In this document: positions 26,133-54,369 of the stretch, piece by piece
Layout of the letters: every line of letters begins with the position of its first letter
Numbering within the stretch: position 1 is the first letter of the stretch
From: Candidatus Dormiibacterota bacterium
GTDB lineage: Bacteria; Chloroflexota; Dormibacteria; Dormibacterales; Dormibacteraceae
Length of the DNA: 64,000 nt
Assembly (NCBI GenBank): GCA_024280995.1
Contig: JAMXLM010000037.1
Span: 1 to 64,000 of the forward strand
Direction: 5' to 3'
Notes under the pieces: model-generated
The model's input: only the letters and a program-made list of their open reading frames with translations
Told to the model about the DNA's origin: nothing
The model's database searches: none
Made by a program: the position numbers and the translations under genes

Positions 26133-26180
26133 GGTTCGCGTTGTGGACCTCGAGCGTAAGCCCGGGTGTAATCAAGCTTT
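26133..26180 (+). repeat. Array site S1 (degraded): IR arm + tail signature
   Basis: GGTTCGCGTTGTGGA then CGAGCGTAAGCCCGGGTGTAATCAAGCTT (compare S7 tail). Confidence 0.6.
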
Positions 26181-26987: not shown

Positions 26988-27050
26988 GTGGGCCGCAGTT
27001 TCCGTAACGCGAACCAACCGACGATGACCGCTCGGCCGATCAGCCTCTGT
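26988..27050 (+). repeat. Array site S2: core + IR' (attL-like)
   Basis: GTGGGCCGCAG (26988-26998) + TTTCCGTAACGCGAACC (26999-27015) + ...GGCCGATCAGCCTCTGTG. Confidence 0.75.
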
Positions 27051-27121
27051 GCACCGGGACCCAAGTCGATCCGGCTCTGACTGAGTGGCACCGTAGCCGG
27101 TTAGTGTTCTTCCGAGACTAG

Positions 27122-27574
27122 GTGAAGCCAGAGCGAGAGAGGCTAGGACCGGAATTCGTCAAGTTGCGCCTCCAGGCGCCAGACGGAACGGTCGAAACGC
27201 CTTGGGCAATCGACCTTGGGGGAGGGACGTACAGGCTGGACAACATTCCGTTCTTCGCCTATGGCGTTTCAGCTGATGACATCGTTCAAGCAGCGCCTGA
27301 GGCGGATGGCGTGCTCAAGTTCATGAAGGTTGTGAAGCCATCGGGCAACCGCACCCTGAGGATTGCCTTTAAGGACAAAGTCACGAAGACGGAGCCGCTG
27401 CTCATCCGCCTGACAGAAATGGGTGTCGGCTGGGAGGGGGCCTTCGCAAAGCTGATCGCTTTGAGTGTTCCTCCTGAAACCAATGTTCAGAAGGTCGTCG
27501 ATCTCCTGAATCAGTCAGGAGAAGACTGGGAATTTGCGAATCCGACCTGGGAAGGGCTCCACTCCGGCGAATGA
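27122..27574 (+). CDS. DUF4265-like protein
   Basis: FVKLRLQAPDGTVETPWAIDLGGGTYRLDNIPFFAYGVSADDIVQAAPEADG. Confidence 0.75.
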   Translation: MKPERERLGPEFVKLRLQAPDGTVETPWAIDLGGGTYRLDNIPFFAYGVSADDIVQAAPEADGVLKFMKVVKPSGNRTLRIAFKDKVTKTEPLLIRLTEMGVGWEGAFAKLIALSVPPETNVQKVVDLLNQSGEDWEFANPTWEGLHSGE

Positions 27575-27613
27575 CACAGCTTGCAACAAACTGGACCACC
27601 GCGCTCGCGCCGT

Positions 27614-27680
27614 GGTAGGGGCCGTAGTTTCCATAACGCGAACCAGTTGACGGTGATTGGTCGGCCCTTGACCCTTCGCT
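27614..27680 (+). repeat. Array site S3: degenerate core + IR'
   Basis: GGTAGGGGCCGTAG + TTTCCATAACGCGAACC (27628-27644). Confidence 0.7.
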
Positions 27681-27799
27681 GGCGACCGAATGCGAAGGCG
27701 GTTAGAAAGAGTCCGACGGCCAACGTCACGCCGCCGGCGATGAACGCAGTGGTCAGAGATGGTAATCGCCGGGGCGCGAGCTAGGGCACACTTCGTGCC

Positions 27800-28585
27800 G
27801 TGGGTCGCAGGAACTTCGACTCGTTCGAAGAGGTGTTGAGATCGGTCGCCGAGCACAAGGCTGCCGCGGCCAAGGCGCACCTCGCCGGCGCCGACCCTAC
27901 CGCCGAGAAGCCTCGTGATGTGTACGTCGGCGCCTGCGCGGCGATCGCGCAGGCCTTGGTGCCTGACGGATTTCGCTACCTCAAGAGCAAGCACGCGCTC
28001 GACCGAATGGTCGGAGCATTTGTTCACCGCGTGTCCTTCCAGTCCAGTGCCGAGAACATCGCCGGTCAAAGCGTCGTTTTGTGGATGCATGCCAATGTGC
28101 GGTGCAAGGACCTGGCAATTTGGCGCTCTCATCAGTCAAACCCACTCCGGACGGATGATTGGGTCGCTGGCGGTATGGTCCACAACCTCACCCGCGAGCA
28201 CGCCATGATCGAATGGCAGCTCGCCGACCCGAAGTCGCGTTCCGCCGTGATCGGGGATGCGCAGGAGTTCGCACGGACCGTCGTCCTCGGATATTTCGCA
28301 CTCTTCGAGGATCCCCAGCGGACGGTGGCCGAACTACTCACGGCTCAGATCAACGCCTTCAGCATCGGCGATCAGATCGAGTTTGTGCTCTGCTTCGCGG
28401 GGCCACAGGAGGCCAATCAAGTCCTGCAGCGCTTCGTCGAGCATCGAAGCGACCTGCACAGCCAGATGCGTCGCGCAATAGAACGCGTCGATCGAGAAGG
28501 CTTTCCCGAGTACTCGCCCAGCGGCTATGCCGACGTGGTGGCGTGGGTTCGTAAGGCCTATCGGCTCGAACCAGCCATCGGGTAG
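27800..28585 (+). CDS. Hypothetical protein
   Basis: 261-aa ORF filling the interval between S3 and S4. Confidence 0.6.
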   Translation: MGRRNFDSFEEVLRSVAEHKAAAAKAHLAGADPTAEKPRDVYVGACAAIAQALVPDGFRYLKSKHALDRMVGAFVHRVSFQSSAENIAGQSVVLWMHANVRCKDLAIWRSHQSNPLRTDDWVAGGMVHNLTREHAMIEWQLADPKSRSAVIGDAQEFARTVVLGYFALFEDPQRTVAELLTAQINAFSIGDQIEFVLCFAGPQEANQVLQRFVEHRSDLHSQMRRAIERVDREGFPEYSPSGYADVVAWVRKAYRLEPAIG

Positions 28586-28653
28586 GCGCCAGTCAGCGAG
28601 CTGCCAGCGTTGGGGTGCGCCTAACCCAGTTCGCAAGATGATTAGGCGGCCTC

Positions 28654-28722
28654 GGTTCGCGTTATGGAAAAGCGCCCGAATTGGTGGTGGGCCGCGGTGG
28701 ACTCGAACCACCTGCCTCCGCG
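28654..28722 (+). repeat. Array site S4: IR + core + tRNA-Ile 3' fragment (attR-like)
   Basis: GGTTCGCGTTATGGAAA (28654-28670), then 38 nt (28685-28722) identical to tRNA-Ile 37096-37133. Confidence 0.85.
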
Positions 28723-28835
28723 GGAATCGGCGTAAGCCAGCGCGTCGCGCAAGTTTTCTGGCGCGCCGCGTCATGCGATGCAACTGATCCGACGTCGAGG
28801 CCCGTGACTTCACCCCTGCGGTCCTCGCACGTCGA

Positions 28836-31820
28836 ATGCAAGGGGGTAGACACTTGCACGCGAGCAGTTTCGTTCGAGAACCGCGACAGGTCGCACCGAT
28901 CGTCAAGACCCCAGAACCAAAAATTCGGATTCGACGCTCGCTCAAGCGCGCGTTGGTGATCGCATCGGTTTGCCTGGTCCTGGCAAGCGGGCTTTTCAAC
29001 GGGTCGTTGTCGATTCACGCGATCGCCGCTGTCAGGCAGGGCGGCATCAACGTCGAACCGTCGGCACGACCGTGGCGTTACGTCGGCGCAAACCCGGATT
29101 CCTGGTGGTGTGTGCAGCCGAACTGCATCACCGATCCAACCGCGCTGATCCAGACCGAGCTCAGCTACGCGCATCAACTCGGCGTCGCCGACCTCCGCCT
29201 GGAGTTTCCGTGGTTTCTGCTCGAACCCGGCAACGGCGTATACGACTGGTCACGCGCCGACCAGATCATGGTCGCCGCGCAAGCCGCGGGCGTCACGATC
29301 CAACCCATCATCGTGTTCACGCCGGCGTGGGCCGGAGCGAACACCACGGTGGCCCCGAGCGCATCAGATTTTTCCGCGTTCGTGACCACGTTGGTGCGTC
29401 GGTACGACCACCAGATCCCGGTCATCGAGATGTGGAACGAGGCCGATCACGGCCATTACTGGAACTCGGGCGAGACCGCGTATGTCCAATCGATCCTCAA
29501 CCCGGGTTACGCGGCTGTGAAAGCCGTCGACGCCTCGATCAAGGTCGAGGTCAGCGGGACGGCGAACGACCCCACGACCAACGGTTGGCTGACGACGCTC
29601 TATTCGCTTGGCGCGCAGTACGACGTCATGTCGTTTCACAACTACTCCGGCAGCGCGCTGTCCGAGGCGCAGTCGATCCAGTCGGTGATGGCCGCGCACA
29701 ACGACAGCAGGCCGATATGGCTCGGCGAGTACAGCGTCGATTCAACGCTCGGCGATCAGTCGTCCCTCATCACGAGCGTGCTGACGAGCGCATCACCGAT
29801 CGCGATGGCGCAGTGGTACAACCTCCGCGACGACGGCGCGTACAACTGCTGCCCTCCAGCGCTCGCCGTGTCGGCGAACTGGGGAGTCATGACGTCGAGC
29901 TATATGGCAAAACCGGCGTTCGCGACGATGCAGTCCCTGCTCACCGGGGCGTCGCCCGCACCTTCACCGTCGCCATCTCCATTGCCATCAACGATGCCGG
30001 CCCCGTCACCGTCTCCAGCCCCTTTACCGTCGCCATCGTCATCGCCGTCGCCGTCGCCTTCGCCCTCACCATCGCCGGCGCCGTCATCGTCAAGCATTGG
30101 CGGGCTGCACGTCGTCGGTAACCACCTCGTCGACGGCAACGGCAACGCCGTGGTCCTTCACGGAGCCGACATGGCGGGCACCGAGTTCGTCTGCGCGCAG
30201 GGCTGGAGCTCCGATCCGTTCGGCGGCCAGGCTGAGGACGACCCTCTGACGTTCGCGGCGATGAAGTCGTGGAACGTCAACGTCGTCAGAGTCCCCCTCA
30301 ATGAGGACTGCTGGCTCGGGATCAACGGCGTCAAGATCTCCGCGGCCACCTACCAGGCCACAATCGTCAAGCTCGTTGCCGACCTGCGTGCCGCAGGCTT
30401 TTACGTCATCGTCGATCTGCACTGGTCGGCGCCCGGCTCGCAACTGGCGTTGAGCCAGAATCCCGCGCCCGACGAGGACCACTCACCCGCCTTCTGGAAG
30501 TCGGTCGCGGCGACCTTCGCGTCCGACACCGGCGTGATCTACGACCTGTACAACGAGCCGTTCTTCTACTGGATCGCGCCGGGCGGTCCGGACGAAAACA
30601 CATGCCTCTGGAACGGATGCACGCTGACGCAGTACGAGACAGGCGGCACGCCGTTCACCATCACCGCGAACTGGCAGTCGGCCGGTTTCAACGAGCTCAT
30701 CGGCGACGTCCGCGCCGCCGGGGCGACGAACGTGATCATGGCGGGCGGCACCAACTGGGCGCGCGACCTTTCCGGATGGCTCGCCCACCGTCCGGCCGAC
30801 GGGAACACGATCGCGTCCTGGCACAGCTACCCCTCCGCCAACCCGAGCCTGCTCAGCGAGTGTGCGGCGCAGTGGTGCTGGGACCAGGTGATCGCACCGC
30901 TGGCGGAGCAGGTGCCGGTCGTCGTCGGCGAGACGGGCGACTCGACGGCGGGTCCGGAAACTTACCTGCCGACCTTCCTACCGTGGGCAAGCGCGCATGG
31001 ACTCAACGTCGCCGCATGGACCTGGAACGCCTGGAACAACTCCGACGACGTCCTCGTCACGAACATGCAGACAGGCGCGCCCACGGCTGGTGAGGGCGCC
31101 ACGTACAGGGGATGGCTCGGCGGGCTCCCTCCGGCGCCGTCGCCTCTGCCGTCACCGTCGCCGTCGGCATCGCCGTCCCCCTCGCCATCACCGTCGCCTC
31201 TGCCGTCGCCTCTGCCGTCACCGTCGCCCAGCCCATCCCCGTCGCCATCGCCGTCGCCCGCAGGCTCCGGCACCGTGATCTTCAGCGACAACTTCACGGC
31301 GGACAAGCACGGCACCACCCCATCGGGATGGAGCGTCGTCGGACTCAACTGCACATGGACCGTGAGCGACACCGCCCACTACCTCGCGCATGGCGGTTCG
31401 GTGGGAAGCCTGACCACAGGCAGCTCCGCCTGGTCGAATTACGCGATGAGCGTCTCGGTCAAGCCGACCGCTTGGACCAGTGAGGGCGACGGCGCGCTGT
31501 TCGCGGTCAACGGATCGAACCACTACAGCGTGCTGATCGTCGGCGGCACCCAACTCCGCCTCAACAAGTCGGTCTCCGGTGTGGAGACCAGCCTCGCGGC
31601 CGTTCCCTATGCCTTCACTTCGAGCAGCTGGTACACGATCAGCGCCTACATGAGTGGTGGCCTCCTCTCTGTCTACGTCAACTCGGTGCTGGTGATCCAG
31701 GTCCATGACTCGACGCTCACGTCGGGGGCCATCGGGCTCGAGGCCAACGATTCGGCGTCGTTCGACAACGTCACCGTCACTCAGCTTGGCGCTACGCCGG
31801 TCGCGGCCGGGCCGATCTGA
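28836..31820 (+). CDS. Secreted multi-domain glycoside hydrolase: N-terminal GH-A-like domain, GH5-like cellulase, C-terminal concanavalin-like domain, Ser-Pro linkers
   Basis: IEMWNEADHG; VIVDLHWSAPG...VIYDLYNEPFFYW...WHSYPS; (SP)n linkers; FSDNFTADKHGTTPSGW...; start uncertain. Confidence 0.8.
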   Translation: MQGGRHLHASSFVREPRQVAPIVKTPEPKIRIRRSLKRALVIASVCLVLASGLFNGSLSIHAIAAVRQGGINVEPSARPWRYVGANPDSWWCVQPNCITDPTALIQTELSYAHQLGVADLRLEFPWFLLEPGNGVYDWSRADQIMVAAQAAGVTIQPIIVFTPAWAGANTTVAPSASDFSAFVTTLVRRYDHQIPVIEMWNEADHGHYWNSGETAYVQSILNPGYAAVKAVDASIKVEVSGTANDPTTNGWLTTLYSLGAQYDVMSFHNYSGSALSEAQSIQSVMAAHNDSRPIWLGEYSVDSTLGDQSSLITSVLTSASPIAMAQWYNLRDDGAYNCCPPALAVSANWGVMTSSYMAKPAFATMQSLLTGASPAPSPSPSPLPSTMPAPSPSPAPLPSPSSSPSPSPSPSPSPAPSSSSIGGLHVVGNHLVDGNGNAVVLHGADMAGTEFVCAQGWSSDPFGGQAEDDPLTFAAMKSWNVNVVRVPLNEDCWLGINGVKISAATYQATIVKLVADLRAAGFYVIVDLHWSAPGSQLALSQNPAPDEDHSPAFWKSVAATFASDTGVIYDLYNEPFFYWIAPGGPDENTCLWNGCTLTQYETGGTPFTITANWQSAGFNELIGDVRAAGATNVIMAGGTNWARDLSGWLAHRPADGNTIASWHSYPSANPSLLSECAAQWCWDQVIAPLAEQVPVVVGETGDSTAGPETYLPTFLPWASAHGLNVAAWTWNAWNNSDDVLVTNMQTGAPTAGEGATYRGWLGGLPPAPSPLPSPSPSASPSPSPSPSPLPSPLPSPSPSPSPSPSPSPAGSGTVIFSDNFTADKHGTTPSGWSVVGLNCTWTVSDTAHYLAHGGSVGSLTTGSSAWSNYAMSVSVKPTAWTSEGDGALFAVNGSNHYSVLIVGGTQLRLNKSVSGVETSLAAVPYAFTSSSWYTISAYMSGGLLSVYVNSVLVIQVHDSTLTSGAIGLEANDSASFDNVTVTQLGATPVAAGPI
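29950..30095 (+). repeat. Ser-Pro linker low-complexity repeat 1
   Basis: ccgtcgcc/tcaccg units. Confidence 0.8.
31130..31265 (+). repeat. Ser-Pro linker low-complexity repeat 2
   Basis: ccgtcgcctctgccgtc units. Confidence 0.8.
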
Positions 31821-31834
31821 TCCGAAAGAAACAA

Positions 31835-31863
31835 GGGCTTGCCTCGTCGCATGAGGCAAGCCC
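31835..31863 (+). terminator. Terminator hairpin downstream of glycosidase
   Basis: GGGCTTGCCTC-GTCGCAT-GAGGCAAGCCC, perfect 11-bp stem. Confidence 0.7.
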
Positions 31864-31917
31864 TCGGGTAGCGGGCGTTTTCCGCACGAATTCGACGAGG
31901 GAAAGCCCGTGAACAGA

Positions 31918-31975
31918 GTGGTGGGCGCGGTTTCCGTGACGCGAACCAACCGGACTGGCTTGGTCGGCCGATTAG
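31918..31975 (+). repeat. Array site S5: core + IR'
   Basis: GTGGGCGCGG (31921-31930) + TTTCCGTGACGCGAACC (31931-31947) + ..TTGGTCGGCCGATTAG. Confidence 0.75.
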
Positions 31976-32031
31976 TCTGAGAAGAGGGATCGCGTATCGA
32001 GCGCCGTGCTTGTGCGGTGATCTCCATAGGT

Positions 32032-32535
32032 TCATGACTCCGCGCCCTCGCCTGTAGTCCTCCCGTACTGATCGGGTATCTGGCCCCAGCCGAAAAACGC
32101 CGTGGGCTTTGACGGAACCATGCCGAGTCGTTCCAGCGGGTCTATCAAGTCGTTTGACACCGTGCATCGGTGTGTCCAGTCGTCGCCCAAGTCGAAAATG
32201 TAGACAAACTGATCCCCGAGCGAGAGTCGACTGAGCTTTGACCGGCGGTCGTCAACGAGATCCTCTTCGGCGTCCTCGTCCACGGGTCCAACGCGAGTGC
32301 CGTCGCCCAGCTGAAACTCGTGGAGGTGACCGCGGTCCCACCGGGCAAAACCGTCATCGATCGCGTTTGCGAGGTCAGCGAAGGAATGATCGGGTGCTGC
32401 CGCGAACAGCCGACCTGGAGCAGGCGAGAATTCTTGCCCGCGGCCGTCGGTCAACTCCACCTTTATAGCCAGCCATCCGGCATTGCGCCGTTTGAAGGAG
32501 CGTCCAGGACCGGGCCGCCGACCCGTGCGCCGCAT
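32032..32535 (-). CDS. Plasmid pRiA4b ORF-3-like family protein
   Basis: IDDGFARWDRGHLHEFQLGDGTRV...LGDQFVYIFDLGDDWTHRCTV. Confidence 0.75.
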   Translation of the reverse strand: MRRTGRRPGPGRSFKRRNAGWLAIKVELTDGRGQEFSPAPGRLFAAAPDHSFADLANAIDDGFARWDRGHLHEFQLGDGTRVGPVDEDAEEDLVDDRRSKLSRLSLGDQFVYIFDLGDDWTHRCTVSNDLIDPLERLGMVPSKPTAFFGWGQIPDQYGRTTGEGAES

Positions 32536-32557
32536 TCACATGGACTATGATCTCAAG

Positions 32558-32614
32558 TAGGTTGCGTTGACTAATTAGTTAGGGCAGGATGCAGCAACCT
32601 ATTAGGTTGAGTTG
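32558..32614. promoter_or_regulatory. Repeated AGGTTG boxes upstream of fic-like gene
   Basis: TAGGTTGCGTTG (32558-32569), CAACCT-ATT-AGGTTG (32595-32609) followed by AGTTG. Confidence 0.5.
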
Positions 32615-32634
32615 TAGAATTTGGCTGCCATAAC

Positions 32635-33702
32635 ATGAGCAACCTACCCGAAAGCACGGCCAGAACGGCACGGGGACGACCCCCGCGCGAAGCGGTCCAC
32701 GCACGACTCAACTTCATGGTCGACGAGCTGAGGACCCGACTCGGCGGGTTGCCGCCCCCTGACGCGGCGGAGGGCATCTGGACCGACATGTGGTACCAGG
32801 AGGCTCACAGCTCAACAGCCCTCGAGGGCAACACTCTCGTGCTGCGAGAGGTTGAAGCACTTCTCCGCGAAGGCAAGGCCGTAGGCAGCAAGGAGCTCAA
32901 AGACTATCTCGAGGTCAGCGGCTACGCGGCCGGCGCCAAATGGGTGTACAGCCAAGCGTTGAGCGCTGGCCCGTGGACGAGCGGCAAGTTGCTCACCATA
33001 ACCGAGGTTCGACAAGTCCACCGACTGGTGATGACGCCCGTCTGGGACGTCGCGCCGCACCCAGACGCCTCCGAAGATGAAGCTCCGGGCAACTGGCGCC
33101 GCCATGACATCCGCGGCTTTAAACACGCAATGAAGCCGCCGGGCCATCCAGAGGTTCCGGCGCTGACGCGCGACTGGATTGATGGCATCGCGAACTTGCC
33201 TCGCGAATCGTCGCCAGTTGCTGAGGCGCTTGCTGCAAGACATGCCGCGTTCGAACGCATCCATCCGTTTATCGACGGCAATGGCCGCGTCGGTCGCTTG
33301 CTAATGAACCTCCTGCTGGTTCGGCTTGGGTATCCACCGGCCATCATCCAGAAGCGTCTTCGCGATCGGTACCTGGATGCTCTAAACCGCGCCGATCTTG
33401 GCGATCCCGGACCGCTGGGCGAAATCATCGCTCGGGCAGTACTCGACAACCTCAGCCGCTTCGTACTGCCCGCCGTCGCAGGCCCTGCCAGGCTTGTTCC
33501 ACTCGAATCGCTGGCCAGTAACGATCTGTCGGTGGTGGCTCTCCGGAACGCGGCACAACGCACGCGCCTGAAGGCGATTCGCGCGGAAGATGGTTCCTGG
33601 CGAAGCAGCCGACAGTGGGTCGACGAATACCGACGCGATCGCTATGCGACCCTGCGCCTGCCACGCAAACGAGGTGCGTCCACGGTGAAGGAATCGAAGT
33701 GA
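32635..33702 (+). CDS. Fic family protein
   Basis: HPFIDGNGRVGRLLMNLLL Fic motif; N-terminal inhibitory-type motif STALEGN. Confidence 0.9.
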   Translation: MSNLPESTARTARGRPPREAVHARLNFMVDELRTRLGGLPPPDAAEGIWTDMWYQEAHSSTALEGNTLVLREVEALLREGKAVGSKELKDYLEVSGYAAGAKWVYSQALSAGPWTSGKLLTITEVRQVHRLVMTPVWDVAPHPDASEDEAPGNWRRHDIRGFKHAMKPPGHPEVPALTRDWIDGIANLPRESSPVAEALAARHAAFERIHPFIDGNGRVGRLLMNLLLVRLGYPPAIIQKRLRDRYLDALNRADLGDPGPLGEIIARAVLDNLSRFVLPAVAGPARLVPLESLASNDLSVVALRNAAQRTRLKAIRAEDGSWRSSRQWVDEYRRDRYATLRLPRKRGASTVKESK

Positions 33703-33719
33703 GGGCTCGCGGCGCTGTG

Positions 33720-33779
33720 GGTTCGGGTTATGGAAAGCCGGTCGAATTGGCGTGGGCGGTAGCTTCCGTAACGCGAACC
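33720..33779 (+). repeat. Array site S6: IR + spacer + core + IR' (attP-like/tandem junction)
   Basis: GGTTCGGGTTATGGAAA-GCCGGTCGAATTGGC-GTGGGCGGTAG-CTTCCGTAACGCGAACC. Confidence 0.8.
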
Positions 33780-33859
33780 AATTGAGCGTTGCGGGGCGAC
33801 GGATCAGCCTCTGTGGATCACGCCATCGGCTGCGTACCGGTTCCTCAGCACGCCTGGCA

Positions 33860-34486
33860 TCAAGCTCGCTGACGGACGGCCACGAGCAGCCAAACGCCCA
33901 TGACGATTCCCCAGAGTAGGAGTGGGAAGAAGGTGAAGAAGGCCAGCGACGTGATCCCGAGGATCCCGATGACCAGCGTGGGCCAGCGGAGCCAAGCCGG
34001 CAGCGGCGGCAGATTGGCGATGGCAACCAATATCAGTGCGAAGCCGAGAAGCGTGGCGGCTGACTCGAATAGAACCTCGGTGCCGCTGATCCCGATCGCA
34101 TAGGTGATGTTCGGCGGGATATTGAGGTTGGTGCCTGCCTCATTGTTGCCGACGGGCTGGGATACGAAGATGCCCCAGCTCACCGCAAAGCAAATGGCGG
34201 CACCGAGTATGAGGCCCCAGATCACTCGAGGCCAGATCGAGCCGGAGTCCTCCGACTCGGCTTGTCGACCGAGGTAGGCGCCCAGGCAAACGAGACCTGC
34301 GGCGCCGAGCAGGCCGCCGAGGGCCGTCACGAGGGCGAGCACGATGTGCCCTGACGAAATGTAGGCGGCGGAGTCGGCGGCGGCGTAGTTCCCGCCCATG
34401 GGGCCACCAACGAAAAGGGCTATGAACGTGAGTACGCCAAAGGCGATTGAGCCGATGCCGGCGGCGATAGTGGCCGATCGCTTCAT
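33860..34486 (-). CDS. Hypothetical membrane protein
   Basis: Multiple TM helices, 208 aa. Confidence 0.7.
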   Translation of the reverse strand: MKRSATIAAGIGSIAFGVLTFIALFVGGPMGGNYAAADSAAYISSGHIVLALVTALGGLLGAAGLVCLGAYLGRQAESEDSGSIWPRVIWGLILGAAICFAVSWGIFVSQPVGNNEAGTNLNIPPNITYAIGISGTEVLFESAATLLGFALILVAIANLPPLPAWLRWPTLVIGILGITSLAFFTFFPLLLWGIVMGVWLLVAVRQRA

Positions 34487-34586
34487 GCGCCAAGTCTATT
34501 TATCCGGCGGGGCCGCGCCACATTGACTCGAGCTAGTGGACCTCAGTTCCTGTAAAGGCCACCGGCCCCGCCGGCCGCCAGTCGAT

Positions 34587-34730
34587 GGTTGGCGTTACGC
34601 AAAGCCGGTCAAATTGAAGTGGGCGGCGGTGGACTCGAACCACCTGCCTCCGCGGTAACTAGCCCTGAGCGCTGTGCGTCAAGAGTGGGAACCCCGAGCG
34701 TAAGGCGGGGTGTTATCAGGCTTGGAACGG
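34587..34730 (+). repeat. Array site S7: IR + core + tRNA-Ile T-arm copy + tail
   Basis: GGTTGGCGTTACGCAAA (34587-34603); GTGGGCGGCGGTGGACTCGAACCACCTGCCTCCGCG (34619-34654, 1 mismatch to tRNA-Ile); tail CGAGCGTAAGGCGGGGTGTTATCAGGCTT. Confidence 0.8.
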
Positions 34731-34735
34731 GACCA

Positions 34736-35281
34736 TCAGTCCGAGTCGGAAAACGCGAGGTGACGACCGCACCTAACACAGCGGAAGAGGTAGGCAGTCG
34801 GAGAGTGGTCCCGGCTGAGGCTGTAGAGATACGACCGCGTCTGCTCATATGACCAGCCGGACTGGTCGTTTTCGTGGAACAACATTTCCCACGCATCCGG
34901 ATGCGCGCCGGCGGCTGATCCGTCGACCGGCCCGAGAAAGGCCGCAGCGTCGGCGCAGTGATATAACCAGTGGTCTTGCTGCCACGAGCTGAATCCGGGC
35001 GTTCGTTGTGACACTTCCAGGCGGACAGCTTTCGGGACGTCAGCTGGTACGCCCCACCCAATATCAGTGAACTCGGCGTCAAACTTCTCCGCGGCGGTCC
35101 CATCGGCGATGCACCAAGGGCAAATCGCATGGTGTAGCTCTTCGGTCGAGTAAACGGGCCCTGTGTAGATGAACCCTCTTACTTGGCCGCAAGCCCGGCA
35201 CTGAGCATCAGAGGGCTTTATCGAACCCGTAGCGACGGGATCTGGGTGGTACTTAAAGATTGGAAGGCTAAAGGCAGACAT
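34736..35281 (-). CDS. CbrC-like family protein
   Basis: LPIFKYHPDPVATGSIKPSDAQCRACGQVRGFIYTGPVYSTEELHHAICPWCIADGTAAEKF; start trimmed to ATG 35281 outside repeat S8. Confidence 0.8.
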   Translation of the reverse strand: MSAFSLPIFKYHPDPVATGSIKPSDAQCRACGQVRGFIYTGPVYSTEELHHAICPWCIADGTAAEKFDAEFTDIGWGVPADVPKAVRLEVSQRTPGFSSWQQDHWLYHCADAAAFLGPVDGSAAGAHPDAWEMLFHENDQSGWSYEQTRSYLYSLSRDHSPTAYLFRCVRCGRHLAFSDSD

Positions 35282-35315
35282 CGCCGCAACGATATCTGTC
35301 CTCGCAGGTTGTGTG

Positions 35316-35343
35316 GTGGGCTGTACCTTCCGTAACGCGAACC
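35316..35343 (+). repeat. Array site S8: core + IR'
   Basis: GTGGGCTGTAC + CTTCCGTAACGCGAACC. Confidence 0.75.
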
Positions 35344-35398
35344 GGATGACGGTCGCCGGCAAAGTCATTGCTATTCCGACCTGCGGCAGGGGCGTGAA

Positions 35399-35911
35399 TT
35401 AGCGGCGGCCCGTACCGTTGTGGCCGTCGCCGTAGGCCTGGCGCCATGCCTTCAAAGCAGCTATCAACTGTGCGGTTGGCACTACTGTGTTGTTGGGAAG
35501 GTTTCGGTCGGCTGCCGACACAGCGCGGGCAAGGCCAGTCAACGCCTGGCTAAGCAGCCCGCTGGGCGCATGGCCGGAGACAAAATCGAAATTCACCCAG
35601 CCGGTCAGTGCGTAGAACGGACCGGGCCTAAATCGGTCGACATCGTCCCAGCGATACGTCACGCCTCCCACGGGCCCAGACCATGTAAAGCCGTCCGGCG
35701 TCAAGAGCCAAGGGCGCGACGATCGGAGGTTTACAGCCGCCAACGCGGTGAACACACCACAACAGGCCGCGAAGATGCCAGTGGCGGCGTCATGGGCGGC
35801 TAGAGCCGCGTAACCGCTGCCAACGAAACCTGCCCCGAACAGGATGATCCCGGTGATCCACAAGATCCTTCGACGCATGACCGGAATCTCAAGCCTGTCC
35901 GAGATGGCCAA
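35399..35911 (-). CDS. Hypothetical membrane protein
   Basis: Two TM helices then SSRPWLLTPDGFTWSGPVGGVTYRWDDVDRF. Confidence 0.6.
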   Translation of the reverse strand: MAISDRLEIPVMRRRILWITGIILFGAGFVGSGYAALAAHDAATGIFAACCGVFTALAAVNLRSSRPWLLTPDGFTWSGPVGGVTYRWDDVDRFRPGPFYALTGWVNFDFVSGHAPSGLLSQALTGLARAVSAADRNLPNNTVVPTAQLIAALKAWRQAYGDGHNGTGRR

Positions 35912-36027
35912 GTCGAAAGCTGGGCTCGAGGCGATGGCACGCCAGTGTAGAGAAAGGCTTTCAGCGCGGCAGCCGACGGCTGCTGCAGCGCTGATCGGTG
36001 AAACGGCAAGTGCGGTTTGGCGCCTTC

Positions 36028-36163
36028 GGTTCGCGTTATGGAAAGCCTGCCGAATTGGAGTGGGCCGTGGTGGACTCGAACCACCTGCCTCCGCGTTGTC
36101 GCGGCGTGAACGGCGTGGCGTCGAATTCTTGATCGCGAGCGACGTGGCGGGGCGTTATCAGCA
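36028..36163 (+). repeat. Array site S9: IR + core + tRNA-Ile T-arm copy + tail
   Basis: GGTTCGCGTTATGGAAA (36028-36044); GTGGGCCGTGGTGGACTCGAACCACCTGCCTCCGCG (36060-36095); GCGTTATCAGCA (36152-36163) identical to tRNA-Ile 37131-37142. Confidence 0.8.
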
Positions 36164-36250
36164 GTGACTTTCGACTGAGCCGCGCAGGCGCTACTGTCGC
36201 CACGATGAGTCCCGACCTCGAGGTGAGAGTCACCTAGCATCTAGAGATCG

Positions 36251-37048
36251 ATGGCGACCGTCGGTGGTGACTCAAGAAGGAAAGACGACGCGGCCGCCGC
36301 CACGAACGTAAGCGTGCTGATGGCGGACCAGATCGCCTACTACCGAGCCCGGGCCCCAGAGTACGACCAGTGGTGGGCGCGGGAGGGTCCATCTGATTTC
36401 GGTCCTGAGTTCAACGCGGCCTGGGCTAGCGAGATCGATGCCGTGGGGGCGGTTCTCAGCGCCTTCAATCCAACCGGTGAGGTCTTGGAGCTGGCGGCAG
36501 GCACCGGAGGACTGACCGTTGAGCTAGCACGATGGGCAAAAGCGATCACGGCAGTGGACGCATCTCCCGAGGCGTTGGAGATCAACAGGGCCAAGCTGTC
36601 TCAGGCCGGGATTCCGGTCGAATACGTGACCGCAGATCTCTTCGCGTGGGAGCCGTCGCGGCGCTACGACGTCGTCTTTTTCTCGTTCTGGCTCTCACAT
36701 GTCCCAGTCGAGCGATTCGACGCCTTCTGGGCATTCGTGGCTCGGTCTCTCCGGCCCGACGGACGCTTCTTCTTTGTCGACAGTGCCGGCCCCGAATGGA
36801 GTCGCTTCTCTGGAGCGAGCGAGGCCGACTCGGAGTCGACTGTCCGGCGCGTACGAACACCCACGGATGTTGCGGCGGATGTTGCGCTCCGAGAGGTCGC
36901 GGACGGGCGTCAGTTCCACATCGTGAAGCGTTTCTGGACGCCCGATGCACTCCGAGGAGAGTTGGAAGCGCGGGGTTGGGAGGCGACCGTAGCCGAAACC
37001 GCATGGGCCTTCATCTACGGTCATGGTCGGCGTTCGGACCACCTATAG
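36251..37048 (+). CDS. Class I SAM-dependent methyltransferase
   Basis: EVLELAAGTGGLTVELARWAKAITAVDASPEALEINRAKL. Confidence 0.9.
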   Translation: MATVGGDSRRKDDAAAATNVSVLMADQIAYYRARAPEYDQWWAREGPSDFGPEFNAAWASEIDAVGAVLSAFNPTGEVLELAAGTGGLTVELARWAKAITAVDASPEALEINRAKLSQAGIPVEYVTADLFAWEPSRRYDVVFFSFWLSHVPVERFDAFWAFVARSLRPDGRFFFVDSAGPEWSRFSGASEADSESTVRRVRTPTDVAADVALREVADGRQFHIVKRFWTPDALRGELEARGWEATVAETAWAFIYGHGRRSDHL

Positions 37049-37095
37049 GTTCCGGCAATGTCGCCCCGAAGCCGGATCGGCTCCGCGGCGATTCA

Positions 37096-37171
37096 TGGTG
37101 GGCCGCGGTGGACTCGAACCACCTGCCTCCGCGTTATCAGCACGGCGCTCTGCCAGTTGAGCTAGCGGCCC
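37096..37171 (-). tRNA. tRNA-Ile (GAT), CCA encoded
   Basis: GGGCCGCTAGCTCAACTGGCAGAGCGCCGTGCTGATAACGCGGAGGCAGGTGGTTCGAGTCCACCGCGGCCCACCA folds as a cloverleaf. Confidence 0.95.
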
Positions 37172-51987: not shown

Positions 51988-54369
51988 CTAGCTCAGGGCG
52001 ACGTCGTCGACGAGCGTGTAGCTTGGGGTTGCCGGGTCACCGTCGTCATGGTTCACGAAAGTGATGGTCACGTAGCTCCCGGCGTGCGCCGACAGGTTGA
52101 CCGTGACCTTCGTCCACACAACGTTCTTCACACACACCGGCGTCTGCACGGTGGACACATCGCCCGTGACGCCGTCGAGCAATGTGGCCGTAAACCAATC
52201 GTTCTTGACCTTGTCCGCGCATACCGATCGGTACCAGAAGGTCAGCTTGCCGCCGGAGGCCGGAACGTCGAACGTCTGCCCCAGGGTGCTGGTCGAAGAG
52301 GCTGAGGCAGATCCGATCTGAGCGGCGAACGTGCCGGTGTGCGGCGCCGCGATGAAGTCCACGTCACCAGACCCCGTCCATCCAATCAAGCCGCTCTCGA
52401 ACCCGCCGTTCACGATGCCTTTCGGAACGACCGTCAGCGACAGGCTGGCCGAGTGCGTGTGGAAGCCGTTGGTACCTGTGACCGTGACCGTGTACACGCC
52501 GGGCGCAACACTGAATCCGGCGTTCAGCGTCATGATCGCGAGGCCGCCAGCCGAGATGGTGCTGTCGACGCTGGCGGTCGGGCCGCCCGGCGACACCGCC
52601 ACCGAGAGGGTGATCGGGCTTGGGCCCACGAGCGCCGTGGTCAGCACGTCGACTCGCGTCAGGTCGCCGTGCGCGAGCGTGGCCGATGACGGGTCGTACG
52701 CAATGGTGAAGTCTGGAATCGGCAGTACCTGCACGGTCACGTCGACATAGTGCGTGGCGACGCCCTCGGTCCCGACGACGCGGACTCCATACGTGCCAGG
52801 CGCCAGTGACGGCGCCGCGGTGATCGTCATCGTCGCCGCGCCACCGGCCATAACCGACGACGGGCTGAAGGACGCCGTGATGCCTGGGTCGTTGGTCAGG
52901 CTCGAGAGCGCGATCGTGCCCGTGCCGCCGACCGCGGTGGTGCTTACCGTGACTGCAGGCAGCGGGTTGCCCAGATACGCACCGACCGAGGTGCGGTCGA
53001 CCGAGATGGCGAAATCGCTGCCGATCCCCACGCCGTGAAGCGGGATGACAAGCGAGCCGCCTGGAACGTTGCCGGTGAACGTCAGCTGCCCGAAACGGTC
53101 GCCCGGGGCAGTTGGCCCGAACGTCACCAGGAACAAGCAGCTGCTGCCTGCCGCCAAGGGGTCGGGACCGGCGGGGCAGTCGCTGCTCGACACGGAGAAG
53201 TCGCCACTGACCGAGAGAGTCATGACGAGTGGACCCGTCCCGGAGCTGAGCACCGAGTAAATGGCCGGCTGGCTCGTCGCGCCCACGTCCACCGAACCGA
53301 ACTCACCGGCGGTCGTGTTCAGGGTCAGCTGCGGATTGCCCGCGGCGGTGACGATGCCAGGACCCAGCTCCCACGTGTCGGCATCGAATGTGTTCGGGTT
53401 CACGCCGGCGTTGAAACCACCGAAGAGCACCATGCGGCCGAGCGCGGAGTCGTAGACCATCGACTGGCCCGCTCGGACGCTTGGCGCCGCCGCCGTCCAA
53501 TCGCGCGCCCATTGAGAGCCGTCCCACTCCCACGTGTCGTTCTCCTCGCCAAGGCTGTACGGCTGGATGTGGTCTCCGCCGAAGAGGATCGTGCGGTCGC
53601 TCACCGGGTCGTACGCCATGGAATGCCAGAACCTCGCGTACGGCGAAACGCTGGGCGTCATCTGCGTCCAGCTCGCTCCGTCCCACTCCCACGTGTCGGC
53701 CATGCGCTGCCCGGCGTTTACATCGCGCCCGCCGAACAGCACGGTCTTGTTTCGAGTCGAGTCGAATGCCATCGCCGCGCCCTGACGAGGCGTCGGCGAG
53801 TTGGCCGGGCTGGCCTGCGTCCAGTTAGTCCCGTCGTACTCCCACGTCTCTGGCATGGCGATTCCAAACGGATTGAACTCGCCGAACACGACCATTCGAC
53901 CACGCGTTGAGTCGTAGGCCATCGCCGCCCAGACCATCGGTGGCGGGGACGTGGCGAGGACGCGTTTGGTCCATGTCGTTCCATCCCACTCCCACGTGTC
54001 CGAGCTCGTCGCAGTTGGTGTCGACCCACCGAAGAGCACCGAGACGTGTCGGGTGCTGTCGTAGGCCATCGCGGCTCCCGCAAGCACTGGCGGCGAGACG
54101 GGCGGCGATGGATTGGTCCACGTCGATCCGTCCCATTCCCAGGTGTCACCAAGGTTCGCGGCCCCGTTGGAGGAGCCTCCGAACACCACCATTCGATTGC
54201 GTAGCGAGTCGTAAGCACTCGCCGCAAACACACGAGCCGGCGGCGATGCGCTCGGCGCTTCCTGCTCCCAGTTGAGTGCCACAGCCGCGGCGGTCGCTGG
54301 TACCGGCCCCAGGACGGCCGCGCCGGCAATCGTGCCGACGATCGCCGCCCGCAGCCATGACATGCGCAT
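51988..54369 (-). CDS. Secreted Kelch-type beta-propeller with Ig-like repeats
   Basis: Repeated AYDS.R..MVVFGG...DTWEWDG..W motifs; C-terminal Ig-like and GFESGLIGWTGSG domains. Confidence 0.85.
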   Translation of the reverse strand: MRMSWLRAAIVGTIAGAAVLGPVPATAAAVALNWEQEAPSASPPARVFAASAYDSLRNRMVVFGGSSNGAANLGDTWEWDGSTWTNPSPPVSPPVLAGAAMAYDSTRHVSVLFGGSTPTATSSDTWEWDGTTWTKRVLATSPPPMVWAAMAYDSTRGRMVVFGEFNPFGIAMPETWEYDGTNWTQASPANSPTPRQGAAMAFDSTRNKTVLFGGRDVNAGQRMADTWEWDGASWTQMTPSVSPYARFWHSMAYDPVSDRTILFGGDHIQPYSLGEENDTWEWDGSQWARDWTAAAPSVRAGQSMVYDSALGRMVLFGGFNAGVNPNTFDADTWELGPGIVTAAGNPQLTLNTTAGEFGSVDVGATSQPAIYSVLSSGTGPLVMTLSVSGDFSVSSSDCPAGPDPLAAGSSCLFLVTFGPTAPGDRFGQLTFTGNVPGGSLVIPLHGVGIGSDFAISVDRTSVGAYLGNPLPAVTVSTTAVGGTGTIALSSLTNDPGITASFSPSSVMAGGAATMTITAAPSLAPGTYGVRVVGTEGVATHYVDVTVQVLPIPDFTIAYDPSSATLAHGDLTRVDVLTTALVGPSPITLSVAVSPGGPTASVDSTISAGGLAIMTLNAGFSVAPGVYTVTVTGTNGFHTHSASLSLTVVPKGIVNGGFESGLIGWTGSGDVDFIAAPHTGTFAAQIGSASASSTSTLGQTFDVPASGGKLTFWYRSVCADKVKNDWFTATLLDGVTGDVSTVQTPVCVKNVVWTKVTVNLSAHAGSYVTITFVNHDDGDPATPSYTLVDDVALS

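Follow-up and report, generated by a model that had tools for sequence, protein, structure and literature searches.

Organization of the cassette array

The window analysed here is a 64,000-nucleotide stretch of a contig from a Candidatus Dormiibacterota bacterium (Chloroflexota), in which an array of recurring attachment-like sites follows a tRNA-Ile(GAT) gene. The array lies on the minus strand and extends from the 3′ end of this gene (37096–37171) to about 26.1 kb, with a median site spacing of 1084 bp. Here, we focus on one of its sites, S6 (33720–33779, minus strand), whose sequence matches the one quoted in a preliminary description of this DNA and which has the form of a P-core-P′ junction. 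S6 is probably the junction of two small cassettes that were inserted in tandem behind tRNA-Ile(GAT) and moved in trans by a CcrB-type serine recombinase.

All nine of the sites that the preliminary description had named, S1 to S9, exist, and apart from S1 and S6 they fall into the two classes it gave. S2, S3, S5 and S8 are P half-sites (arm and core), while S4, S7 and S9 consist of the 3′ half of tRNA-Ile, the core, a spacer and the P′ arm. S6 combines the two halves, whereas the site at about 26133, S1, has degenerated. The 17-bp arm of S6 has eight matches in the window with three or fewer mismatches, against 0.04 expected in shuffled sequences, and the 28-bp core plus arm has three, against none expected. 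Within S6, the two arms are identical at 14 of 17 positions, differ at the other 3 of 17, and are separated by 26 nt. The half-site classes fit the logic of attL, attR and attP sites, and the proposal that S6 is an attP or tandem-cassette junction is supported; the cassette limits proposed on either side of it (31.9–33.7 and 33.8–34.6 kb) coincide with site cores. The present analysis adds a likely recombinase class (serine), an interleaved second site family and the finding that the P′ arm of S6 is displaced by 10 bp. The array comprises the following features, in which S and T denote cassettes of the serine type and of the second, tRNA-half-bounded type, respectively.

37096–37171 (−): tRNA-Ile(GAT), anchor of the array (ARAGORN, Rfam)
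3′ end of the tRNA at 37096–37171 (−): ...GGTTCGAGTCCACCGCGGC/CC/ACCA, putative attB (motif geometry)
36113–37095 (+): T cassette, methyltransferase at 36251–37048 (+) (Pfam Methyltransf_25, 2e-17)
36094–36060: tRNA-Ile 3′ half, repeated beside the methyltransferase cassette (sequence repeat)
36028–36097 (−): S9, tRNA-Ile 3′ half, core, 15-nt spacer and P′ arm; B-P′, attL-like
35319–36062 (−): S cassette 1, about 0.74 kb, between the S9 P′ and S8 P cores; open reading frame (ORF) 35399–35911 (170 aa, no family match)
35316–35343 (−): S8, P half-site and core; P-B′ junction, attR-like
34619–35315 (−): T cassette, UPF0167 protein at 34736–35368 (Pfam UPF0167, 2e-55)
about 34619–34716: end of the UPF0167 cassette, conserved arm and tRNA-Ile 3′ half (T-site match, 5e-17)
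34587–34656 (−): S7, tRNA-Ile 3′ half, core, spacer and P′ arm with substitutions
33755–34621 (−): S cassette 2, about 0.87 kb, ORF 33860–34486 (208 aa, no family match); predicted circle
33720–33779 (−): S6, complete P-core-P′ between S cassettes 2 and 3
33755–33754: putative exchange dinucleotide CC of S6 (breakpoint from the conservation drop)
31923–33754 (+): S cassette 3 with Fic and PRiA4_ORF3, about 1.83 kb; predicted circle
32635–33702 (+): Fic protein (Pfam Fic, 1e-17)
32032–32535 (−): PRiA4_ORF3 protein (Pfam PRiA4_ORF3, 4e-11)
31920–31947 (−): S5, P half-site and core, arm-core gap 1 nt shorter
28689–31919 (+): T cassette, 994-aa glycosidase at 28836–31820 with glycoside hydrolase (GH) domains GH5 and GH53 (Pfam Cellulase, 2.5e-33)
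28721–28687: tRNA half beside the glycosidase cassette (sequence repeat)
28654–28724 (−): S4, tRNA-Ile 3′ half, core, 16-nt spacer and P′ arm
27620–28689 (+): S cassette 4, ORF 27800–28585 (261 aa, no family match)
27617–27644 (−): S3, P half-site and core
26991–27619 (+): S cassette 5, DUF4265 protein at 27122–27574 (Pfam DUF4265, 1e-29)
26988–27015 (−): S2, P half-site and core
26133–26180 (−): S1, degenerate array end, apparently a truncated T-type arm fused to an inverted-repeat remnant (sequence comparison)

Anatomy, breakpoint and tRNA targets of the sites

The anatomy of the sites was derived from 105 P and 40 P′ copies. All 105 P copies considered together, P is conserved as GGTTCGCGTTACGGAAACTACGGCCC to base 26, where conservation drops sharply; bases 27–30 are mostly a tRNA-like ACCA, and the sequence is random beyond base 31. 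This drop is a sign of a putative recombination breakpoint. P′ is joined to the 3′ ends of tRNA-Ile(GAT), tRNA-Leu(GAG) and tRNA-Val(TAC), all of which end in GCCCACCA. The tRNA-bound class predicted earlier is present: P′ halves are attached to the 3′ end of either a complete tRNA or a tRNA half. Direct fusions of a tRNA to P′ are found in L032, L131, L133, L134 and L166, and such fusions of complete tRNAs (Ile, Leu and Val) would be the predicted attL. Target duplication by transposition was set aside, since the cassettes retain a GGCCCAC core of their own next to tRNA-Leu as well, a tRNA that ends in TCGCCCAC.

The distance between the P′ arm and the core is bimodal, with modes 10 bp apart: about 5 nt, where the arm mostly contains ACGG, and about 15 nt, where it mostly contains ATGG. 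The long type also carries a GAATTG motif and occurs in the window, in L048, L053, L062, L128 and L131, and elsewhere. Every P′ in the window, that of S6 included, is of the long type, as are most of the 40 P′ sites. Recombinase genes are linked to the short type only.

Complete P-P′ sites number 15 in the window and its relatives, with inter-arm loops of 15 to 27 nt. The 26 nt between the S6 arms agree with the loop of the hairpin of about 17 bp that had been suggested for this site, but the stem is imperfect. The further idea of a folded single-stranded substrate is not supported, as a change in one arm of a site is hardly ever matched by a compensating change in the other: among the 15 complete sites the many arm differences are uncompensated, save for a single shared deviation at position 17. 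Recognition of double-stranded sites is favoured.

A serine recombinase linked to the same ends

Elements of relatives that have these ends encode a large serine recombinase, which was not found in the window's own genome. One genome, G028, carries two copies of a 4.4-kb element with the order P′, recombinase (523 and 541 aa, one at L198:7233–8858), a divergent helix-turn-helix (HTH) gene, a 422-aa protein and P. The match between the two copies breaks off at the site cores or a little past them, at the P core and in the tRNA half. At both loci the recombinase gene lies directly against P′ and continues across it into the tRNA half. Likewise, in an IMG/VR contig (L218), the gene extends across P′ into an intact tRNA-Leu(GAG). 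At two loci of G032, a damaged or truncated copy abuts P′, and in G024 a relative with 53% identity, interrupted by an internal stop, abuts an intact tRNA-Ile.

Three domains, Resolvase, Recombinase and Zn_ribbon_recom, were identified in the recombinase. Among the NCBIfam models, CcrB of the staphylococcal cassette chromosome (SCC) matches it best, with an E-value of 2e-50 and 171.9 bits against a cut-off of 900; by these scores the protein is related to CcrB and is not a member of that family. More distant relatives are located at the 3′ end of tRNA-Ala(TGC) in G018 (36% identity) and at tRNA-like T-arms in two contigs of a viral collection (L220 and L221). The half-site geometry described below recurs at the tRNA 3′ ends or T-arms beside the divergent serine recombinases L210, L220 and L221. 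Together, these loci suggest, at the level of sequence, a broad tRNA-targeting clade of serine recombinases. Serine recombinases of about 30% identity (G018 C203, G027, G030, G032 C29 and family f4) were set aside, as no tRNA T-arm lies directly behind their aligned ends.

An HTH_17/MerR-like protein, encoded divergently from the recombinase, is conserved (L198:8911–9780, L138:5410–6078 and L129:8237–9004) and is a candidate directionality factor. Separately, inspection by eye of L218:2100–2300 revealed the apparent start of a tyrosine integrase behind tRNA-Arg(TCG), perhaps that of a prophage.

Half-site geometry

In the LI integrase system, a 9-bp zinc-domain motif occupies half-site positions 16–24 in attP and lies 5 bp inward in attB (PMC3783163). 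When CC is taken as the exchange dinucleotide, the P motif GGTTCGCGT falls at half-site positions 16–24, and the P half of S6 follows this rule. The T-loop of the target tRNAs (Ile, Leu and Val), GGTTCGAGT, is identical to GGTTCGCGT at 8 of 9 positions at a shift of 5, and at 4 of 9 or fewer at the other shifts tested. At the recombinase-linked ends, including those of divergent relatives at other tRNAs, the element motif lies at 16–24 in all seven cases. The T-loop would thus supply the zinc-domain motif of attB. As it is common to tRNAs, it may also be the reason why tRNA 3′ ends serve as targets. Of the individual arguments for a serine integrase, this geometry is the strongest.

A second, tyrosine-integrase-type site family

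Interleaved with these sites is a second repeat of about 100 bp, composed of an arm in which GCAGCGCTC-like motifs recur and of the 3′ half of tRNA-Ile from the anticodon loop onward. Such T-type sites are found in the window at 34619–34716, 36060–36113 and 28685–28722, and also in L045, L050, L134, L159 and L246. T-type arrays with a spacing of about 1 kb exist as well, among them an array of about 25 kb that starts at tRNA-Ile (G001:C99). In G028:C1 (L250:11098–12208), a 312-aa tyrosine integrase lies directly behind an intact tRNA-Ile(GAT); the next T-type site is 7.6 kb away, and the same contig also carries a serine-recombinase element. Displaced tRNA 3′ halves together with an integrase beside the intact tRNA, the hallmarks of a tRNA-integrating tyrosine-recombinase island, are thus present in relatives; the integrase of this type was not found in the window's own genome. 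It is probably the engine of the T-type family.

Two integration systems therefore appear to share one tRNA. We had considered the tRNA fragments of S4, S7 and S9 as simple attB remnants of the S system, a view abandoned because many copies belong to the separate repeat of about 100 bp with its upstream arm. The serine-type cassettes would instead have been inserted into tRNA halves left by the T-type system.

Cargo and distribution of the cassettes

The cargo consists of unrelated single functions: a methyltransferase, a UPF0167 protein, Fic with PRiA4_ORF3, a GH5/GH53 glycosidase, a DUF4265 protein and several unknowns. A CnbZ-like cargo protein scored just under the model cut-off. No recombinase is encoded among the genes between the window sites. 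In a PADLOC scan of the cargo, Fic matched candidate PDC-S04 models and the methyltransferase matched part of mad2, and no complete defence system was detected. The GH53-like and GH5 domains of the glycosidase (28836–31820) are linked by low-complexity repeats. An Rfam scan of the window matched two tRNAs and nothing else. Outside the array, repeats of about 150 bp (families D6 and D7) are located at 53500–54250.

The window's own genome contains 12 site copies across three contigs. The 17-bp arm is present in all 17 genomes of the genus and in 29 of 42 genomes of the family. At the level of the class, 28 of 110 genomes contain the 26-bp P half-site; apart from two that belong to a second family (f4), they are all members of the window's own family. 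It was found in none of 50 genomes of families f2 and f3. Reversed-pattern controls were zero or near zero in all of these searches. The exact P half-site patterns had no match in viral contigs, where the recombinase search did find matches.

Upstream of tRNA-Ile, the gene order is syntenic with G007, while the two arrays downstream have no common cassette at the level searched. A homologue of the Fic cassette occurs in a different array of another genus (80% over 1122 nt). Certain cassettes are common to different genomes and genera at 94–95% DNA identity, and for some shared cassettes besides the G028 element the match stops at the site cores.

Proposed mechanism and alternatives

The site classes, the breakpoint, the tRNA targets, the physical linkage of recombinase and P′, and the short-type attL geometry can be read from the sequences, and they suggest the following route. 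Each cassette would once have been circular, with P-core-P′ as its attachment site (attP). A CcrB-type large serine recombinase would pair attP with the tRNA 3′ end (attB) and exchange strands at CC in GGC/CC/ACCA, producing tRNA-P′ (attL) on one side and P joined to downstream sequence (attR) on the other. A second insertion at tRNA-P′ would then give the order tRNA-P′, new cassette, P-P′, old cassette, P. The order S7-S6-S5, with cassette 2 (about 0.87 kb) followed by cassette 3 (about 1.83 kb, Fic), fits this scheme exactly. As the cassettes encode no recombinase, they would be moved in trans, by the enzyme of some autonomous relative, for instance the 4.4-kb element present twice in G028. 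We infer catalysis by this enzyme, the circular forms, the mobilization in trans and the action of the same enzyme on the long P′ of S6.

Several observations weigh against this model. The P′ arm of S6 lies 10 bp, or one helical turn, further out than P, and the site lacks the symmetry expected of an attP; among the two P′ types, only the short one is symmetrical about the exchange dinucleotide. The long P′ would place the zinc-domain motif at 26–34 instead of 16–24, and its arm is about 15 nt from the core, compared with about 5 in every recombinase-linked end. The recombinase gene was not found in any of the 17 genus genomes, where the incompleteness of metagenome-assembled genomes may hide it, and other serine recombinases occur in just two of them. 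Finally, the boundary evidence from shared cassettes is modest: 28 of 248 shared stretches have a matching site-bound end, and one has both.

It is unlikely that the same sites are served by a tyrosine recombinase, either a resident Xer or an anticodon-loop integrase as in G028, with the 17-bp arms as arm-type binding sites. Such an enzyme would have the tyrosine integrase directly behind the intact tRNA-Ile in G028:C1 as its precedent, and both site families are mixed in the arrays; arm-type sites would also accord with an arm-core distance that varies with a 10-bp phasing, and a PF00589 gene occurs in most genomes, its conserved product being presumably Xer. However, no PF00589 gene abuts P or P′, the same-contig case (G004:C361) being a fragment about 0.7 kb off. 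Furthermore, the tyrosine-type family differs in its end and in its crossover point, which lies in the anticodon loop, whereas a serine recombinase is linked to P′ at five loci and the half-sites have the geometry of the serine-integrase kind.

A fossil array, in which real insertions left sites that are now inert and are shuffled only by homologous recombination between repeats, is very unlikely. The absence of a detected recombinase in the genus, the decay of several sites (S1, S3, S5 and S7) and the scarcity of shared cassettes that keep both boundaries would be expected of it, but in several genera the arm is free of mismatches in many P copies, arrays at the syntenic locus lack common cassettes, and the 94–95% identity of some cassettes between genomes and genera also speaks against it. 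Integron-like cassettes, with S6 as a folded, attC-like single strand, seem extremely improbable: the array of cassettes of about 1 kb, those in the window without a recombinase, and the variable loop length recall such a system, but the arm differences are uncompensated as described above, neither P nor P′ sites have a tyrosine integrase directly beside them, and most P copies stand without P′.

Comparison with known systems

In the ssrA islands of Dehalococcoides, the enzyme is DsiB, a serine recombinase related to CcrB and about 540 aa long; its gene crosses attL and continues into the 3′ end of ssrA (PMC3146451). These islands are tandem, with repeats of the RNA-gene 3′ end between them; many lack a recombinase of their own, and they are thought to move by accretion (PMC3146451). 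They belong to the same phylum, and the read-through of the recombinase gene into a structural RNA 3′ end is alike, DsiB being likened here by its description. The Dehalococcoides islands, however, target ssrA (tmRNA) in its T-loop and have a six-gene integration module and dehalogenase cargo, whereas the cassettes described here use tRNA-Ile, -Leu and -Val 3′ ends, measure about 0.6–4 kb, carry one or two genes and have a 17-bp inverted arm conserved across genera.

The recombinase here has its best NCBIfam match in SCC CcrB, far below the curated cut-off. SCC and SCCmec elements are inserted at the 3′ end of a conserved gene, where they form tandem composite cassettes, and some of them have no recombinase; their target is the protein gene rlmH, and the elements are tens of kb long. 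The insertions described here lie at tRNA 3′ ends, not at that of rlmH. The zinc-domain motif is placed as in LI (A118) integrase sites, with positions 16–24 in attP and the 5-bp inward shift in attB. Two features differ: the tRNA T-loop provides the attB motif, and S6, with its long P′, exceeds the LI layout by 10 bp on one side. Integron arrays are likewise tandem, with mostly single-gene cassettes that lack their own recombinase, but the present arrays have a tRNA gene as anchor and neither a linked IntI-type integrase nor a folded attC with a compensated stem. Tycheposons and other tRNA-targeted tyrosine-recombinase islands share the tRNA anchor, and the interleaved T-type family with its tyrosine integrase resembles them; the S family differs in its link to a serine recombinase and in its use of the acceptor/CCA end of the tRNA.

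The known targets of serine integrases are mostly protein genes, and among the papers searched none was found to describe tRNA-targeting serine-recombinase cassette arrays. Tentatively, the arrays could be a serine-integrase counterpart of the integron, a broader view for which we see somewhat less than an even case: recombinase-free cassettes of one or two genes would be gathered in long tRNA 3′-end arrays by CcrB-like enzymes that act in trans and for which the T-loop of tRNA genes serves as attB. The cassettes would have a satellite attP of their own, with the P′ arm displaced outward by exactly one helical turn, and a tyrosine-integrase cassette system using the same tRNA would be interleaved with them. 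The serine-recombinase clade found here appears to be aimed at tRNA 3′ ends by way of the T-loop motif, and recombinase-free small cassettes seem to have taken over the ends of its elements. These loci provide new enzyme and site pairs with predicted attB and attP, and they point to a testable route by which uncultured Chloroflexota may gather single accessory genes, such as those for Fic, methyltransferase and glycosidase proteins, among others.
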